This document shows, piece by piece, positions 3,322 to 26,091 of a DNA stretch of 64,000 nt (positions are counted from its first letter, which is position 1; each line of letters begins with the position of its first letter). A program made the position numbers and the translations under genes. Under the pieces are notes generated by a model, which did not search any database, had not been told where the DNA came from, and saw only the letters and a program-made list of their open reading frames with translations. Source of the DNA: an uncultured Nostoc sp. (GTDB lineage: Bacteria > Cyanobacteriota > Cyanobacteriia > Cyanobacteriales > Nostocaceae); the NCBI RefSeq assembly GCF_937863485.1, contig NZ_CALMFY010000046.1:42214-106213 (forward strand), given 5' to 3'.

Positions 3322-6300
3322 ATGTTAAATATTAACCGCTTGCGGTTGCAAGATATATTTAAAATCCCTACAAATTTACTTGTAGGAAAAGTTGCAAGTG
3401 CGATCGCTGTTTTTGTTGGCAGCTTGGTACTAGTTGGCTGGTGGTTTGGCATTGAAGTTCTCAAGCGCGGCTTCCCTGGTAGTCCGGCCACAATGAAAGT
3501 CAACACAGCGCTGTGTTTTGTGCTGTGTGGTGTGTCGCTGTGGCTGTTTTTAAGAGGAGGGGGAAACAATTCAAAATTCAAAATTCAAGTTGCGCTGGAA
3601 GCGCACCAAAGGTGCGACTCAAAATTATTTCCCCACTTCCCCACTCTTCTAATTTCTAGGGTCTGTGCAATAGCGGCTACCACAATTGCTGTGCTTACAG
3701 TCTGTGAATATCTGTTTGGCTGGAATCTTGGTATTGACGAACTGCTATCGCGTGATTCGCTAACTAGCATAGCGACATTGCATCAGGGGCGAATGGGGGT
3801 GAACACAGCAGTGAACTTTATGCTGGTGGGCGTCGCCCTACAGATTGTGGTTAATCCAAAAACCGACCGCAGTTATTGGTATGCCCAGATTATCGCTCTG
3901 ATAGCTACTTTAATTTCCTTTCAAGCGCTCATGGGCTATGCCTATAAAGTGAAAGTTCTCTACGGACTTGCCCCTTATACAACATCAATGGCCTTACACA
4001 CAGCGGTGTTGTTCAGCTTACTAGATATAGGCATTCTCTGGGCGCGACCAGAACAGGGGTTAATGAGGGTAGTTACAAGTGATACCTACGGCGGCTTACT
4101 TGCACGTCGTTTATTAATTGCCGCGATCGCAGTACCTTTTATACTGGGGTGGATAATTGTTGAAGGTCAACGGGCAGGACAATACGATCCAGCTTTTGCA
4201 GTATCGGTGTTTGCGATCGTCCTGATTGTGATTTTTACTGTTTTGATTTGGCAAAGTGCGGCGGTTATTGAACGTCTCAGCCATCAACGTGATCTTGCCC
4301 AAGAAGCACTGAGAACCTACGAAGCTAAACTGGGGAGTTTTGTTGATGCTAACGTTATCGGCATTCTGTTTGGTGACGTGTATGGCAGTATCCAGCAAGC
4401 AAACGACGAATTCTTGAGGATGATTGGTTACACGCGAGAGGATTTGTTAGCAGGCAGGCTAAGTTGGAGTAATATCACACCACCAGAGTATCTATATTTG
4501 AATGAGCGAAGTGTCGCCGAAGCACAAGGAAGCGCCAACGGTGCTTGTATGCCTTACGAGAAAGAATACATTCGTAAGGATGGTAGCCGCATCCCAGTTT
4601 TAGTTGGTTACGTGCTGCTAGGAGAAAACCGAGAAGAATCAGTAGCATTTATCCTCGACTTGAGTGAACGCAAGCAAGCAGAAGCAGAGCAACAAAAATT
4701 AGTATCGTTGGTAGAAAATAGCTCTGACTTTATCGGCATCGCCACCCTTGAGGGTGAATTACTCTACATAAATGATGCAGGTCAAAAACTGGTAGGGCTT
4801 GCAAGCCTTGATGAAGTGAGGCGAAAAGCAGTATTAGATTACGTCATGCCCAAAGACAAAGCCTATTTTCAAGAATATATACTGCCGACTGTGCTATTAC
4901 AAGGGCGCTGGCAAGGAGAATTCTGTTTTTGTCACCTCCAAACAGGTCAACCGATACCAGTTGATTACAACATCTTCACTGTTACAGACAACAACACAGG
5001 TCAGCCAATTGCCTTAGCAACTGTGACTCGCGACATTAGCGAACAAAAGCAGGCCAAGGAACAAATCTTACAACTAAACAAGGATTTACAGCGCCGCATT
5101 ACTGAGTTACAAACTTTGTTGGAGGTCATTCCCATTGGAATTGGCATTGCTGAAGATCCAAAATGCCAAAATATCAAGGTCAACCCTGCTTTTGCCAAGC
5201 AGTTGGGGATATCGTCAGATACAAATGCCTCCCTCAACGCTCCCAGTGACGAAAAATCGACAAGCTTTAAAATCTACCGAGAAGGAAGGGAACTGTCAGC
5301 AGAGGAACTGCCAATGCAATACTCTGCCACTCATGGTGTCGAAGTTCTGGATTGTGAACTCGATGTCGTCCATGAAAATGGAAAAATCGTCAACCTGTTG
5401 GAGTATGTTGCACCCCTGTTTGACGAAGAGGGTAAAACTAGAGGAAGCGTCGGTGCATTTTTAGATATTACGGAGCGCAAACAGGCAGAGGAAGTACTTT
5501 TAAATCAGCAAAAATGGCTGGAGGATGTGTTAAATCTGATGCCCAGACCGTTGCTGTTTATCGAACCAGGAACGGCGCGGGTAACTTTTGCCAATCGCTC
5601 TGCTGACGAATTAGCTGGGGGCGAATTTCCCAAAGGTGTACCAGCCGCAGATTATCACACAGTTTACCACTACACAGATGCAACTGGCGATCGCATCCCC
5701 AATCAGCAAATGCCAGGAGTGCGGGTTGCCCTTGGCGAACGCCTGAATGGATTGGAAGTAGACTGGCACACTCCCGGTGGTGTCCGCTCTCTACTAGTAT
5801 TTGCTGATACCCTGCCAGCAATGCACGGTCATCCAACTACCTGTATCTTGGTGTTCCAAGAGATTAGCAACCTCAAAAAGGTACAAAAAGCACTCTTGTT
5901 AGGTTACAAAAGGCTAAACCTACTATTTGATACAGCTAACGATTTACTATCGAGCCAACAACCAGTAGTACTAATCGATAGCGTCTACCGAAAACTAAAA
6001 GACCAAATTAGTTTAGATATTTACTTTAACTATTTGGTTGAGGATAACTCTCAGATATTGCAATTGGGGTCTTACAGTGGCATTTCCCAGGAGATGGCAA
6101 AGGAAATTGAGAGGTTGGCATTTGGTCAAGGGGTTTGTGGTACTGTAGCGCTCTCACGCCATCCCATAGCTGTAGAGAATGTGCAGCAATCCACTGAAGA
6201 GAAAACAGAATTGATTCGCTCTTTAGGCATTAGTGCTTATTATTCATACCCATTGATTGCTCAAGGACGGCTGTTGGGTACTCTTTCTTTTGGCAGCCGC

Positions 6301-7320
6301 ACTCTGTTAAGCTTCACCGACAATCAAAAGGGGATGATGCAAGCAGTATGCGACCAAATAGCGATCGCAATGGAACGGGCTAGTTTAATTGCTTCTTTGC
6401 AACAACAAACTGAGGAGTTGCAAGATGCTAACCGCATGAAGGATGAATTCTTAGGGATATTGTCCCACGAGTTGCGATCGCCCCTCAATGCCATCCTTGC
6501 CTGGGCGCAATTACTGCAACGAAGCAAGCTCAGTGAAACCCAAATGGCTAGGGCTACGGAGACAATTGAGCGCAATGCGAAGGCGCAAACCCAGCTAATT
6601 GAAGACCTGCTGGATGTATCACGGATGATTAGAGGTAAGTTACGCCTCAATGTTGGTAGTTGCAATTTGGTTGGGATAATTGAGTCAGCCATTGAAACTG
6701 TTAGTCTAGCCGCCCAGTCCAAGGAAATCGATTTGAGATTTTCCCTGATTCCCTCAAAAGAAACGCGAAATGCGCCACCGGGGATACTCCCCGTAGTTAC
6801 TTTCGCGCAAAATTCCGATTTGGGATTAGGAATCAATCGCGAAAATCTAGAATCTCTAGAAGCACAATCCCAAACCAATCAACACTCAAAGGATAGCAAG
6901 TTTAGCGAAAATTCTCAATTCTTAATTTCCGGGGATTTCGAGCGTTTGCAGCAAATCATCTGGAATCTGCTATCCAATGCCATCAAATTCACACCCGTAG
7001 GAGGACGGGTAGAGGTGCAATTGTCAGTAGTCACTGGTGAAGAAAAACAACAGACAACGGATAATGCCCAAATTCAGGTGATTGACACAGGCATTGGTAT
7101 CAGTCCTGACTTTCTTCCTTACGTCTTTGATTGCTTTCGTCAAGCTGATAGTTCTAACACTAGAACCTATGGTGGATTAGGACTAGGATTAGCGATCGTG
7201 CGTCATTTAGTAGAATTACATGGCGGTACTATCCATGTAGATAGTCCAGGTAAAGAGCAAGGAGCAAGGTTTACAGTCAAGCTACCACTTTTGAAAAGTC
7301 GCCCCCTCGCAGCCTCGTAG
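3322..7320 (+). CDS. membrane-anchored multi-PAS/GAF sensor histidine kinase
   Basis: Large hybrid-less sensor kinase of 1332 residues. Residues 1-325 hold about seven to eight membrane helices with a duplicated MxVNTAxxFxLxGVxL motif (around residues 54 and 155). Then come four PAS-type segments (about 332-450, 455-575, 595-715, 726-850), each but the last ending in a D-I/L-S/T-ER/EQKQA linker, and a GAF domain (about 866-1020). The HisKA domain has the phospho-accepting His 1049 in [12 protein letters not shown], and the HATPase domain has [16 protein letters not shown] and GGLGLGLAI. There is no receiver domain and no adjacent response regulator, so its partner is unknown. Odd: two low-complexity stretches (about residues 82-108 and 1146-1203) coincide with dispersed repeats inserted in frame; the second lies between the H-box and N-box. 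Confidence 0.92.
3567..3645. repeat. dispersed repeat in frame in the kinase N-terminal region
   Basis: AATTCAAAATTCAAAATTCAAG is followed by the imperfect palindrome GCGCTGGAAGCGC and ACCAAAGGTGCGAC. The reverse complement of nearly the same sequence lies in the intergenic region at 40078-40138, which shows this is a mobile or copied repeat rather than native coding sequence. Confidence 0.75.
6757..6930. repeat. low-complexity insert between kinase H-box and N-box, probably repeat-derived
   Basis: About 55 extra residues separate the [11 protein letters not shown] strand from [12 protein letters not shown]. The DNA holds a GAAACGCGAAATGCGCC...ACTTTCGCGC inverted arrangement, CGGGGATACTCCCCG, and a CTAGAATCTCTAG palindrome, then an AATTCTCAATTCTTAATT run of the type that occurs at repeat edges elsewhere in such genomes. 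Confidence 0.55.
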
Positions 7321-19567: not shown

Positions 19568-20347
19568 ATGAATAACCTAATTCCAGCTATCAAAGTTAAA
19601 AATATCAGCTTTTACTATGGCACAACAAAAGCAATTGAAAAGGTGTCAATAGATATTTATCAAAATCAAGTAACAGCAATTATTGGTCCTAGTGGTTGTG
19701 GTAAATCTACCTTCATCAAAATTCTTAATCGCATTAGTGAATTAGAAGGGCCTGTGAAAGTTGAAGGGGATGTAGAATTTTTTGGTCAAAATATTTATGC
19801 TCCTCGTGTCAACATCAATCGGTTACGCCGCCAAATTGGTATGGTGTTCCAAAAACCGAATCCTTTTCCTATAAGTATTTACGAAAATGTTGCCTACGGT
19901 ATGAGAATAGCAGGCAGGTATTCAAAATTAAAATTAGATGAAATCGTCGAATCTGCACTTCACAGCGCTGCTCTTTGGGATGAAGTGAAAGATAAGCTGG
20001 ATAAATCAGCTTTATGGCTTTCTGGTGGTCAACAACAAAGATTATGTATTGCCCGTGCTTTAGCAGTCAAGCCAAAAGTTCTGCTGATGGATGAGCCTTG
20101 CTCGGCTCTTGACCCCATCGCTACCATGAAAGTTGAGGAACTGCTCCATAGTTTGCAGTCTGAGTTGACAATTGCGATCGTTACCCACAATATGCAGCAA
20201 GCCGCTCGCGTTTCTGATTTTACGGCTTTTTTTAGCACCGATGAAAGTCGCATTGGTCAAATGATTGAATTTGGTGCTACAGAGCAAATCTTTAACAACC
20301 CACTAGACCCCCGCACCCGCGATTACATTTCAGGGCGTTTCGGTTAA
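19568..20347 (+). CDS. pstB: phosphate ABC transporter ATP-binding protein
   Basis: The 259-residue ATPase that powers PstCA. All nucleotide-binding motifs are intact: Walker [10 protein letters not shown] (residues 40-48), Q-loop [10 protein letters not shown] with Gln 95, signature LSGGQQQR, Walker [14 protein letters not shown] and the switch His in IVTHNMQQ. It follows pstA by 37 bp. A paralogue 530 bp downstream shares long identical DNA stretches with it. Confidence 0.95.
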
Positions 20348-20877: not shown

Positions 20878-21657
20878 ATGAGTAAACTAATTCCAGCCAT
20901 TAGAGTCAAAAACTTCAGCTTATATTACGACACTCAAAAGATAGTTGGAGGCGTGTCAATGGATATTTACCAAAACCAAGTCACGGCAATTATTGGTTCT
21001 AGTGGTTGTGGTAAATCTACTTTTCTTAAATCGTTAAATCGCATGAGTGAATTAGAAGGAGAAGTGAGGGTTGAAGGAAAAGTAGAATTTTTTGGACAGA
21101 GTATTTATGAGCGTCGTGTCAACATCAATCGCTTACGTCGCCAAGTTAGTATGATTTTTCCCAAGCCAAATCTTTTTCCCATGAGCGTTTACGATAATGT
21201 CGCCTATGGGGTGAAATTAATTGGATGGCATCCGAAAGTAGAATTAGATGGGATTGTTGAATCTGCCATCAAGGCTGCTGAACTTTGGGATGAGGTAAAA
21301 AATAAACTGCACAAATCTGCTTTAGAGCTTTCTGGCGGTCAACAACAAAGATTATGTATTGCCCGTGCTTTAGCAGTCAAACCGAACGTTCTGTTGATGG
21401 ATGAACCTTGTTCAGGTCTTGATCCTGTTGGTAGCATGAAAATTGAGCATCTGATCCATAACTTGCGCTCTGAGTTGACAATTGTGATTGTTACTCACAA
21501 TATGCAGCAAGTTCCTCGCCTATCTGATTTTACGGCTTTCTTTTGTAGTAATGAAAATCGCATTACTCAAATGGTTGAATTTGGTACTACAAATAAAATC
21601 TTTACTAACCCTGTGGATTCTCGCACCCGCGACTACGTTTTCCCCCGCATCAATTGA
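20878..21657 (+). CDS. pstB: second PstB-like ATP-binding protein with altered Q-loop
   Basis: A 259-residue paralogue of the preceding PstB, colinear without gaps. Walker A GSSGCGKST, signature LSGGQQQR, Walker [13 protein letters not shown] and the switch His (VTHNMQQ) are intact. The Q-loop reads MIFPKPNLFP: the conserved glutamine at residue 95 is proline (CCC at 21160-21162). That glutamine normally couples ATP-site closure to the permease, so this copy may be impaired or specialised. Several cyanobacteria carry more than one pstB. The stretch TCTGGNGGTCAACAACAAAG onward is nearly identical in both copies for about 55 bp, suggesting gene conversion or recent duplication. Confidence 0.9.
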   Translation: MSKLIPAIRVKNFSLYYDTQKIVGGVSMDIYQNQVTAIIGSSGCGKSTFLKSLNRMSELEGEVRVEGKVEFFGQSIYERRVNINRLRRQVSMIFPKPNLFPMSVYDNVAYGVKLIGWHPKVELDGIVESAIKAAELWDEVKNKLHKSALELSGGQQQRLCIARALAVKPNVLLMDEPCSGLDPVGSMKIEHLIHNLRSELTIVIVTHNMQQVPRLSDFTAFFCSNENRITQMVEFGTTNKIFTNPVDSRTRDYVFPRIN

Positions 21658-21841: not shown

Positions 21842-22210
21842 ATGAAATGTCCCCGGTGCGAATCTACTTTATATCGTAAAAATGGTCGTAGGAATGACAA
21901 GCAGAATTACCTCTGCAAAAATTGCGGTAAACAATTTCTTGAGCCTGCATTCCCTCGTTCCCTGGAAAGTGACTTGCTTGCTAACAGCAACGGGCATCCT
22001 AAAATATCTATACCTGAAACTAGAGAACTTTCTTTAGTAAAAAACCTATTAGAAGAAAAAGTTACAGAGAAAAGCCTTAGCTCTTTTAGTTTTACATTAG
22101 CTGAAGAACTGCTGCAAACTATATTATCGCCTGATTGGCTAGAATCTGCTGTATTCAGTCAATTGATCCAAAAATTTCAACAAAAAACTGAAATTCAACA
22201 TCAATTATAA
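21842..22210 (+). CDS. IS1-type zinc-ribbon protein, possibly N-terminal part of the NYN protein
   Basis: The 122-residue product starts MKCPRCESTLYRKNGRRNDKQNYLCKNCGKQF, a four-cysteine zinc ribbon of the type found in IS1 InsA and related DNA-binding proteins. A helical region follows (LAEELLQTILSPDWLESAVFSQLIQKFQQK). The frame ends with QHQL-TAA at 22208-22210 and then continues open in the same frame into the NYN protein (TGISLLLLDAENL). The frame is open upstream to 21740, but MKCPRC is the natural start. It may be a separate small protein or the first half of one broken or recoded gene. Confidence 0.65.
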   Translation: MKCPRCESTLYRKNGRRNDKQNYLCKNCGKQFLEPAFPRSLESDLLANSNGHPKISIPETRELSLVKNLLEEKVTEKSLSSFSFTLAEELLQTILSPDWLESAVFSQLIQKFQQKTEIQHQL

Positions 22211-22231
22211 ACAGGAATCTCCCTTCTACTT

Positions 22232-23128
22232 TTGGATGCGGAAAACTTAAAATTAGATATTAATTCACAATTATTTTTAGCCAGTATTTGTAAATATCCT
22301 CTCCAAGCTAAAATCGCATTTGCTAACTGGAGAAATCAAAGTATTGGTAAACAAGATATTGAACTATATAACCGTGGCTATCAACTTGTCCATGTGCCTG
22401 AGGGTAAGGACAGTGCTGATGCAAAAATGATCGCACTTGGTGCTTGTATTTTACGCTCTTATCCAACAGCTAAAGAAATCTTGGTCTGTTCTAGCGATGG
22501 AATTTTGATCCACCTCTGTAACGAACTCCAAAATCAAGGATTAATTGTCTATTGGGTACGTAGACAAGGACAAAATTTGCATATAGAAAACCGGAATACC
22601 GGCAAATTAACTCATTATTCCTTATCAATGGCAACAGAAGTTCCATCCTTTGAAAAAGTGGTTGAGCAAATTCAAGATTTAATTAAAAACGAACAAGATT
22701 CAATCAATGCTCGATTACACAGTTTAGCGGCTATTGCTAGTTTATTTCAAGAAAGATGCAATATCAATATCAACTATAATCAAAAGCAGCCACAAATTGA
22801 GGAAATAATTTCTCTTCCAGAAGAGTTATCTCCAAAATCTATTCAACAGGAAAAACAAGAAGATTTTGCTAAAATTTCTGATGGAAAAACATTAGATAAA
22901 TTTCTCTTGAAAATAATTCAAGATATCCAAATAAATTCTCCTACAGCTAAATTATCTGTGTCCAAGCTAGGTACAGAGATACAGAAAATAACTGGAGAAT
23001 CTCCTAATTCAATTATTAAAAAATTAAAGTTAGGTTCCAATTTTACCAAATATCTAGAATCATCTCCCACATTTACATTAAAGGCGAGTGGCAAGGAATA
23101 TGAGGTAACGCCGCTACTCTGCAAGTAA
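22232..23128 (+). CDS. NYN domain ribonuclease-like protein with C-terminal LOTUS/OST-HTH-like domain
   Basis: The NYN fold (PIN-like RNase, as in LabA and MARF1) is seen in LLLLDAENLKLDI, VHVPEGKDSADAKMIALGA and AKEILVCSSDGILIHLCNEL, which carry the conserved acidic residues that bind metal. Residues ~235-298 (LSVSKLGTEIQKITGESPNSIIKKLKLGSNFTKYLES-P-FTL) resemble an OST-HTH/LOTUS RNA-binding domain. A likely role is RNA cleavage or RNA-directed regulation. The first start codon after the preceding TAA is the TTG at 22232, with a weak AGGA at 22213; the strand LLLL before DAEN, essential for the fold, begins before or at it. This supports the view that the native protein began further upstream, with the zinc ribbon. 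Confidence 0.8.
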   Translation: MDAENLKLDINSQLFLASICKYPLQAKIAFANWRNQSIGKQDIELYNRGYQLVHVPEGKDSADAKMIALGACILRSYPTAKEILVCSSDGILIHLCNELQNQGLIVYWVRRQGQNLHIENRNTGKLTHYSLSMATEVPSFEKVVEQIQDLIKNEQDSINARLHSLAAIASLFQERCNININYNQKQPQIEEIISLPEELSPKSIQQEKQEDFAKISDGKTLDKFLLKIIQDIQINSPTAKLSVSKLGTEIQKITGESPNSIIKKLKLGSNFTKYLESSPTFTLKASGKEYEVTPLLCK

Positions 23129-25114: not shown

Positions 25115-25254
25115 TGCCTGAGTACAAAATACCAATTGAAATTCAGCCAGACTCCAAACAAGTTGATTTTGTAGACAAGCAACTTCAGGATTTCAATGTA
25201 GGCAAGATTGGAGATTAGCAATATACGCCACTGTTTCTATTACTTCATGAGTGA
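25114..25254 (+). pseudogene. N-terminal remnant of a GNAT acetyltransferase
   Basis: The frame reads MPEYKIPIEIQPDSKQVDFV, then DKQLQDFNVGKIGD, TAG, QYTPLFLLLHE and TGA. I recognise the pattern N-terminal to the first strand of cyanobacterial GNAT acetyltransferases (IPIEI-P--KQVDFV--QL--FN----GD-QY-PL-ILLRDE). A stop at 25216-25218 interrupts it, and after HE everything is missing, including the acetyl-CoA binding core. It starts on the hppD stop codon (TGATG). Confidence 0.55.
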
Positions 25255-25375
25255 GGCTGCCATATATGCCGTTATGACTCGTATTATGCTACGTCGTCTA
25301 GTCGTCTAAAGATTTACTTTATAAATGGTCTCTAATGATAAAGAATTTAAAGTTATTGGAGAGGAGACAAATATA

Positions 25376-25924
25376 ATGGACAGACTTGATTTGCGGGCTG
25401 AAATTATCCCTGGAGTTTCCGCAGCAGGATTTAGCATTGGACAACATCTTTCATCAATACCTGATCTTAGTGAGCCTAATCTGGTTGTCAATCTCCAAGA
25501 AGAAAGAGAGAAGAGAGAAAAAGGATTGAAATCAATTAATATCAACGAAGCTTTATCTAAGTCGGATGGCTGGATCTGTCAGAAAATCTGCTCAGATTCT
25601 GAGAAGTTAGATGGACATAAAGTTTTCTATTATAAAGATAGGGTTGTATTACTGCATTTTAATTCGGATGATATTCTCTTCGTTATTTTTGTTTTTGAGG
25701 GCTACCAAGGAAAGTTTTTTGATAAATTTGAAATCGGCTCTAAGGTTTCGGATATAAACGAGTATTTTGAGCTTGAATATGATAGCGGAGATGAAATGCA
25801 TTATCCTTCTGAATCATCTCATGTTAAAGGTATTGCCTTCTATGGTGCAGAAGAATCTTTAGAAGATAATGCTGAACAAAAAATCATAGGTTTTTGCGTA
25901 CATAACTGGAGTTTACAGGTATAG
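25376..25924 (+). CDS. hypothetical protein
   Basis: Not recognised. The 182-residue acidic, soluble product begins MDRLDLRAEIIPGVSAAGFSIGQHLSSI; such an I-PG-S--G--IG-xL motif occurs in uncharacterised proteins of polymorphic-toxin immunity and stress neighbourhoods, but this is not enough to assign a role. The frame is open from ATG 25325, yet the ATG at 25376 has a strong GGAGAGGAGA ribosome binding site 11 nt upstream and is preferred. It is low in GC relative to neighbours, which fits acquired DNA. No toxin gene is adjacent. Confidence 0.65.
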   Translation: MDRLDLRAEIIPGVSAAGFSIGQHLSSIPDLSEPNLVVNLQEEREKREKGLKSININEALSKSDGWICQKICSDSEKLDGHKVFYYKDRVVLLHFNSDDILFVIFVFEGYQGKFFDKFEIGSKVSDINEYFELEYDSGDEMHYPSESSHVKGIAFYGAEESLEDNAEQKIIGFCVHNWSLQV

Positions 25925-26091
25925 ATATGAGCGTAGGGTAAGCTGATGAAAGGAATTATCTGCTCGATCCGAGGGGTAATCGTCGATAGTTTCTTAAAAA
26001 GAGTTTACAAAAAACCTTAGCTAGACTTGATCCTCTCGAAAAATAGCCATATATCTGAGATAATTTTAATAAAAATTAACATTTTGCGCCG

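Follow-up and report, generated by a model that had tools for sequence, protein, structure and literature searches.

Bacterial proteins that combine an LK-nuclease (NYN/DUF88) with OST-HTH (LOTUS) domains were described by Anantharaman, Zhang and Aravind in 2010 (PMC2848206). The passages of that paper that deal with this pairing report no conserved neighborhood with known RNA-processing systems and propose stand-alone RNA degradation; they also mention proteins in which the LK-nuclease is fused to Zn-knuckles, as well as the nuclease and OST-HTH layout of Limkain b1 (PMC2848206). Within Nostoc, Npun_R1332 of Nostoc punctiforme is presented as an NYN protein encoded next to ribonuclease 3 (PMC7660261). 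Among the literature matches listed, no title or abstract opening named the gene that is the subject of this report.

The gene resembles the described LK-nuclease and OST-HTH proteins in its order of parts, a PIN/NYN-type nuclease followed by OST-HTH, of which those proteins carry one or more. It differs from them, as they are presented in the relevant passages of PMC2848206, in that its intact Nostoc relatives add an N-terminal IS1-type zinc ribbon rather than a Zn-knuckle, and in that the copy in the genome studied here is interrupted. Npun_R1332 is likewise a Nostoc NYN-domain protein but is described as lying beside ribonuclease 3 (PMC7660261), a setting other than the pstB-SDR one of the present gene. 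We have filed the gene with the LK-nuclease and OST-HTH kind, with an IS1-type ribbon added, because of its NYN profile match and its LOTUS fold. Our reading of the locus, to which we assign a probability of roughly 80%, is that a single zinc ribbon-NYN-LOTUS gene on the chromosome has recently been inactivated here, and that its intact relatives are likely to be stand-alone RNases.

One reading frame interrupted by a single TAA

Coordinates are positions in the window, the whole 64,000-nt stretch of DNA analyzed, which comes from contig C46 of an uncultured Nostoc sp. (genome G000, a 7.5 Mb draft assembly of 250 contigs). Reading frame 1 from 21842 to 23128 gave 122 codons, a TAA at 22208-22210, seven sense codons, a TTG at 22232, and then an open frame as far as the TAA at 23126-23128, confirming the arrangement recorded in the first-pass annotation, namely two ORFs in one frame with only a TAA and seven sense codons between them. 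The two parts jointly match single proteins of relatives end to end, and the 3' part has a single match within the genome. The features of the locus are as follows.

21842-22210, plus strand: 5' part of the broken gene, 122 codons and the TAA, with a conserved MKCP start (M1 invariant in 32 rows of alignment A2)
21848-21943, plus strand: IS1/IS1595-type zinc ribbon, residues 3-34, with Cys 3, 6, 25, and 28 (NCBIfam NF050000 on the G090 copy; the Cys residues are present in the window copy)
22076-22186, plus strand: predicted helical stretch, residues 79-115 (AlphaFold2 model of L058, low confidence, pLDDT blocks 32-65)
22208-22210, plus strand: in-frame TAA, codon 123 (29 of 39 aligned copies, among them that of G090, have GAA)
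22211-23128, plus strand: 3' part of the broken gene, 305 codons and the stop (ORF reading)
22211-22633, plus strand: NYN (PIN-like) domain, residues 124-264, with Asp132, Glu134, Asp172, Asp193, and Asp219 (Pfam PF01936, MARF1 fold match, residue conservation)
22217-22237, plus strand: predicted first NYN strand, residues 126-132, the last being Asp132 (L058 model; Asp132 from the codon alignment)
22232-22234, plus strand: TTG, residue 131, the first standard in-frame start codon past the stop (sequence)
22877-23122, plus strand: LOTUS/OST-HTH-like winged helix, residues 346-427 (Tejas LOTUS fold match; Pfam OST-HTH only at E 0.15)

The first NYN strand had been proposed to begin in the gap between the two ORFs, and its predicted position in the model of an intact relative agrees with this. 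Two features of the interrupted copy count against its inactivation: the rest of the frame contains no second internal stop, and the four Cys residues and the acidic residues at 132, 134, 172, 193, and 219 have all been kept.

Domains by profile and predicted fold

On the intact copy of the nearest relative (G090), the zinc-ribbon model NF050000 scored 48.1 bits against a cut-off of 28. The IS1 transposase model (NF033558) was rejected as an identity for the protein, as it reached 32.2 bits against a full-length cut-off of 100 and covered residues 3-36 only. The ribbon itself (about residues 1-40) matches many short frames in the genus, often in many alike copies, with 17 equal-score places in G178, a pattern to be expected of the first ORFs of IS1-type transposases.

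The NYN profile PF01936 matched the 3' part in the window at 34 bits (gathering cut-off 24.2, E 5.1e-8) and matched 37 of 37 rows of alignment A1 at E 0.05. Asp132, Glu134, Asp172, Asp193, and Asp219 are invariant in all of these rows, and we take the four aspartates to be the catalytic acids of a PIN-like active site. The OST-HTH/LOTUS profile PF12872, by comparison, fell below its gathering cut-off of 23.8, with 12.4 bits for the window copy (E 0.15) and 13.4 for that of G090, and only six of the 37 A1 rows matched it at E 0.05 (best 3.5e-4).

An AlphaFold2 model of the intact relative L058 had a mean pLDDT of 69 and a pTM of 0.40; the linkers were poor, the ribbon blocks ranged from 57 to 78, the NYN blocks were mostly at 70-90 with one at 59, and the C-terminal domain was at 70-89. 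Residues 346-427 of this model matched the Tejas LOTUS domain with Z 10.5 (rmsd 1.9, 70 aligned), followed by TDRD5 (9.6), TDRD7 (9.4), and then an ORC winged helix (6.6). The modeled NYN part resembles that of the eukaryotic protein MARF1 (Limkain b1), with Z 12.7, rmsd 3.5, and 134 aligned residues against the mouse MARF1 NYN domain; Can2 and Csm6 chains follow at Z 9-10, so that the margin of MARF1 over unrelated folds is modest. Unlike in MARF1, Pfam scans of the window and G090 copies gave no RRM match, and the LOTUS fold matches are to Tejas, TDRD5, and TDRD7, with one LOTUS domain in the L058 model. Foldseek returned two matches at E 0.001 or better, the MARF1 NYN domain and 2qip. When A2 was used as a profile against PDB sequences, neither an NYN nor a LOTUS chain came up; the two matches, both weak, were to an RNA polymerase subunit and a zinc-finger protein. 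The zinc ribbon-NYN-LOTUS set that had been recognized from the sequence thus stands, the first two domains by profile and the third by predicted fold though below the Pfam cut-off.

Three relatives gave no match at E 0.1 to the PADLOC defense models, a library that reflects the knowledge of 2023. A promoter and terminator scan, at best a rough pattern match, was kept out of the evidence. We infer that the intact relatives are most likely stand-alone RNases, in which RNA would be bound by the LOTUS domain, and possibly by the zinc ribbon as well, and cleaved by the NYN domain, which carries the invariant acidic residues. Intact copies in sequenced strains could be used for testing what bacterial NYN-LOTUS proteins cut.

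Intact and broken copies in the genus and family

Using the full-length G090 protein as the query, we obtained some match in every one of 53 genomes of the genus. The search for full-length fused homologues that had been suggested for this gene found a single uninterrupted frame in 41 of them, including G090, running across the site of the stop, and the ORF pair is accordingly not a chance arrangement. Ten genomes, G000 among them, contain a broken copy or a remnant. The G194 copy has a TAA at codon 348; those of G187 and G190 are frameshifted, in G190 close to codon 123; the G185 copy combines a TAA at codon 123 with further stops, indels, and an inserted stretch; the G193 copy is without about its first 150-165 codons; and G195, G196, G213, and G184 retain remnants. 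A contig end truncates the G192 copy, and in G212 no copy was found with the G090 query apart from a 40-residue zinc-ribbon match. The inserted stretch in G185 (copy at L117 about 4517-5965) is, by look only, a candidate dispersed repeat.

In a tree of 49 rows, from which the remnants of G195, G196, G213, and G184 were omitted because the region used is absent in them, the six broken rows fall on six separate branches and need six changes, at least four of which are forced by well-supported branches. G000 pairs with G090 (support 100/98). The same gene has therefore been broken repeatedly in related species, at a fixed place in the genome, which is ordinary loss of function. With intact relatives and repeated decay on record, and no pattern of homologues that are always two proteins with this junction, the earlier proposal of one native gene with a nonsense change is upheld. 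The frequent loss of this conserved cyanobacterial NYN-LOTUS gene within the genus indicates that it is dispensable under many conditions.

Some of the broken relatives may nevertheless be assembly errors, which counts against our reading: the pstB gene beside the frameshifted G187 copy (L118 about 5850-6615) is itself split between two frames, and the G187 frameshifts may be assembly base errors.

Beyond the genus, 128 of the 192 genomes in a family sample matched the 3' part at E 0.001. By alignment, relatives in other family genomes include a ribbonless form with a helical or short N-terminus, an NYN domain, and one or two LOTUS-like stretches, while in an Okeania relative the ribbon and the NYN domain are followed by a longer tail with two matches to the LOTUS part. 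The ribbonless form is also found interrupted, by a TAA in G091 and by a TGA and a TAG in G014.

Codon 123 and the age of the stop

The G090 copy, 96% identical, has an open frame with GAA at codon 123. For the codon comparison, which required continuous coverage from about residue 3 to residue 415, 55 copies were kept, 39 of them distinct once duplicates were merged; G185, G187, and G190 did not have this coverage and are absent from it. Codon 123 is GAA in 29 of the 39, GAT in four, AAA in three, GAG in one, CAA in one, and TAA in G000 only. The relatives, G090 included, therefore point to GAA as the ancestral codon and not to the CAA that the first-pass annotation had assumed. The TAA would have arisen by a single G-to-T change in a glutamate codon immediately ahead of the NYN domain, leaving the cell with, at most, a zinc-ribbon fragment of 122 residues that lacks the nuclease. 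We infer loss of function in this strain; what had looked like a possible case of recoding becomes an ordinary nonsense mutation.

G000 and G090 differ by 15 synonymous and 15 nonsynonymous changes (dN/dS 0.26). When these were polarized against the other copies, eight nonsynonymous and eight synonymous changes plus the stop fell on the G000 side and six and seven, respectively, on the G090 side, with one synonymous change undecided. Among intact copies, the 551 pairs with dS under 0.6 had a median dN/dS of 0.32. By these values the gene is under moderate constraint, with no measurable relaxation after the stop, and the stop is thus either young or an error. We consider it most likely that the gene is dispensable and that it acquired the nonsense mutation recently.

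Were it an error, the gene of the organism would be intact and the TAA would be a wrong base introduced by sequencing or assembly. The lone lesion, the lack of any sign of relaxed selection, and the draft state of the assembly all fit this explanation, but isolated wrong bases inside contigs are uncommon in short-read assemblies and broken copies are frequent across the genus, and on balance we regard an error as unlikely.

The junction between the zinc ribbon and the NYN domain

The stop sits at a domain boundary and is followed by a TTG 21 bases further on; codon 123 is likewise TAA in G185, and G190 is frameshifted close to it. These observations speak for a gene that works in two pieces, with coupled re-initiation yielding two products, one with the zinc ribbon and the other with NYN and LOTUS. 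A protein started at the TTG, however, would omit residues 123-130 and with them most of the predicted NYN strand, and a working split gene is unlikely for this reason. Moreover, the lone AGGA (22213-22216) in the 22 bases upstream of the TTG stands 15 bases away from it, and past the TTG the frame has no GTG before residue 185 and no ATG before residue 196. The TTG also behaves as an ordinary Leu codon, being TTG in 30 of the 39 copies and TTA in nine, and the G185 copy is broken further on as well. We consider a two-piece gene very improbable.

Programmed read-through of the TAA, giving the full-length protein at a low level, would account for a frame that is open and conserved past the stop. 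The sister copy in G090, however, is without the stop, and among the copies read at codon 123 only the decayed G185 copy shares it, which makes this explanation barely credible. Neither read-through nor re-initiation, both of which had been raised for this locus, has support, in view of the position of the AGGA and the loss of most of the NYN strand.

A broader form of these ideas is that, in several Nostoc lineages, breaks between the ribbon and the NYN domain at codon 123 or adjoining it, as in G000, G185, and G190, are selected rather than random, the halves being made apart or joined by regulated read-through. The same-codon TAA of G185 lies on another branch and, together with the nearby frameshift in G190, means that the boundary has been hit more often than one might expect, which counts against our reading. 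In the G090 copy, a single base change would turn 177 of 427 codons into a stop, by 220 routes in all, of which 44 are G-to-T changes; by rough reckoning, two given lesions would coincide in the same codon with odds of about 1/44 to 1/177. Given these odds, and the frameshifts, further stops, and insert that mark the G185 copy as decayed, we rejected its TAA as a sign of function. A selected break is highly doubtful, and recent inactivation of a single gene remains our preferred reading.

Genomic setting

In a survey of 44 named-genome loci (L031-L074), with identity limits for the markers of 70% for SDR, 60% for pstB, and 50% for the HPPD-like gene and weaker matches left out, 30 loci had pstB on one side of the gene and SDR plus the HPPD-like gene on the other. 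Of the other 14, some run into contig ends, and others, chiefly from more distant genera, have one marker or none. pstB adjoins all nine of the broken copies fetched, and SDR lies on the opposite side in eight; in the ninth, G193, SDR was not found in the stretch examined, where the contig ends soon past the gene. At least one of the pstB, SDR, and HPPD-like markers is beside the ribbonless form in seven of the nine loci fetched.

G108 (L122 3100-5919, minus strand) has two adjacent NYN-LOTUS genes near pstB, one of the zinc-ribbon type and the other with a helical N-terminus, and other genera have one form only near the same markers. This distribution suggests an old tandem pair with differential loss.

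The window contains two pstB-like genes in tandem (19568-20347 and 20878-21657). Only the second is present in the 19 kb of G090 compared, and its G090 version shares about 72% protein identity with the first. The stretch from about 14.6 to 20.4 kb of the window has no G090 counterpart save for a 97-base piece and the pstB likeness. On the other side of the broken gene, the window from about 25133 to 26039 is unaligned to G090 and contains an ORF at 25325-25924.
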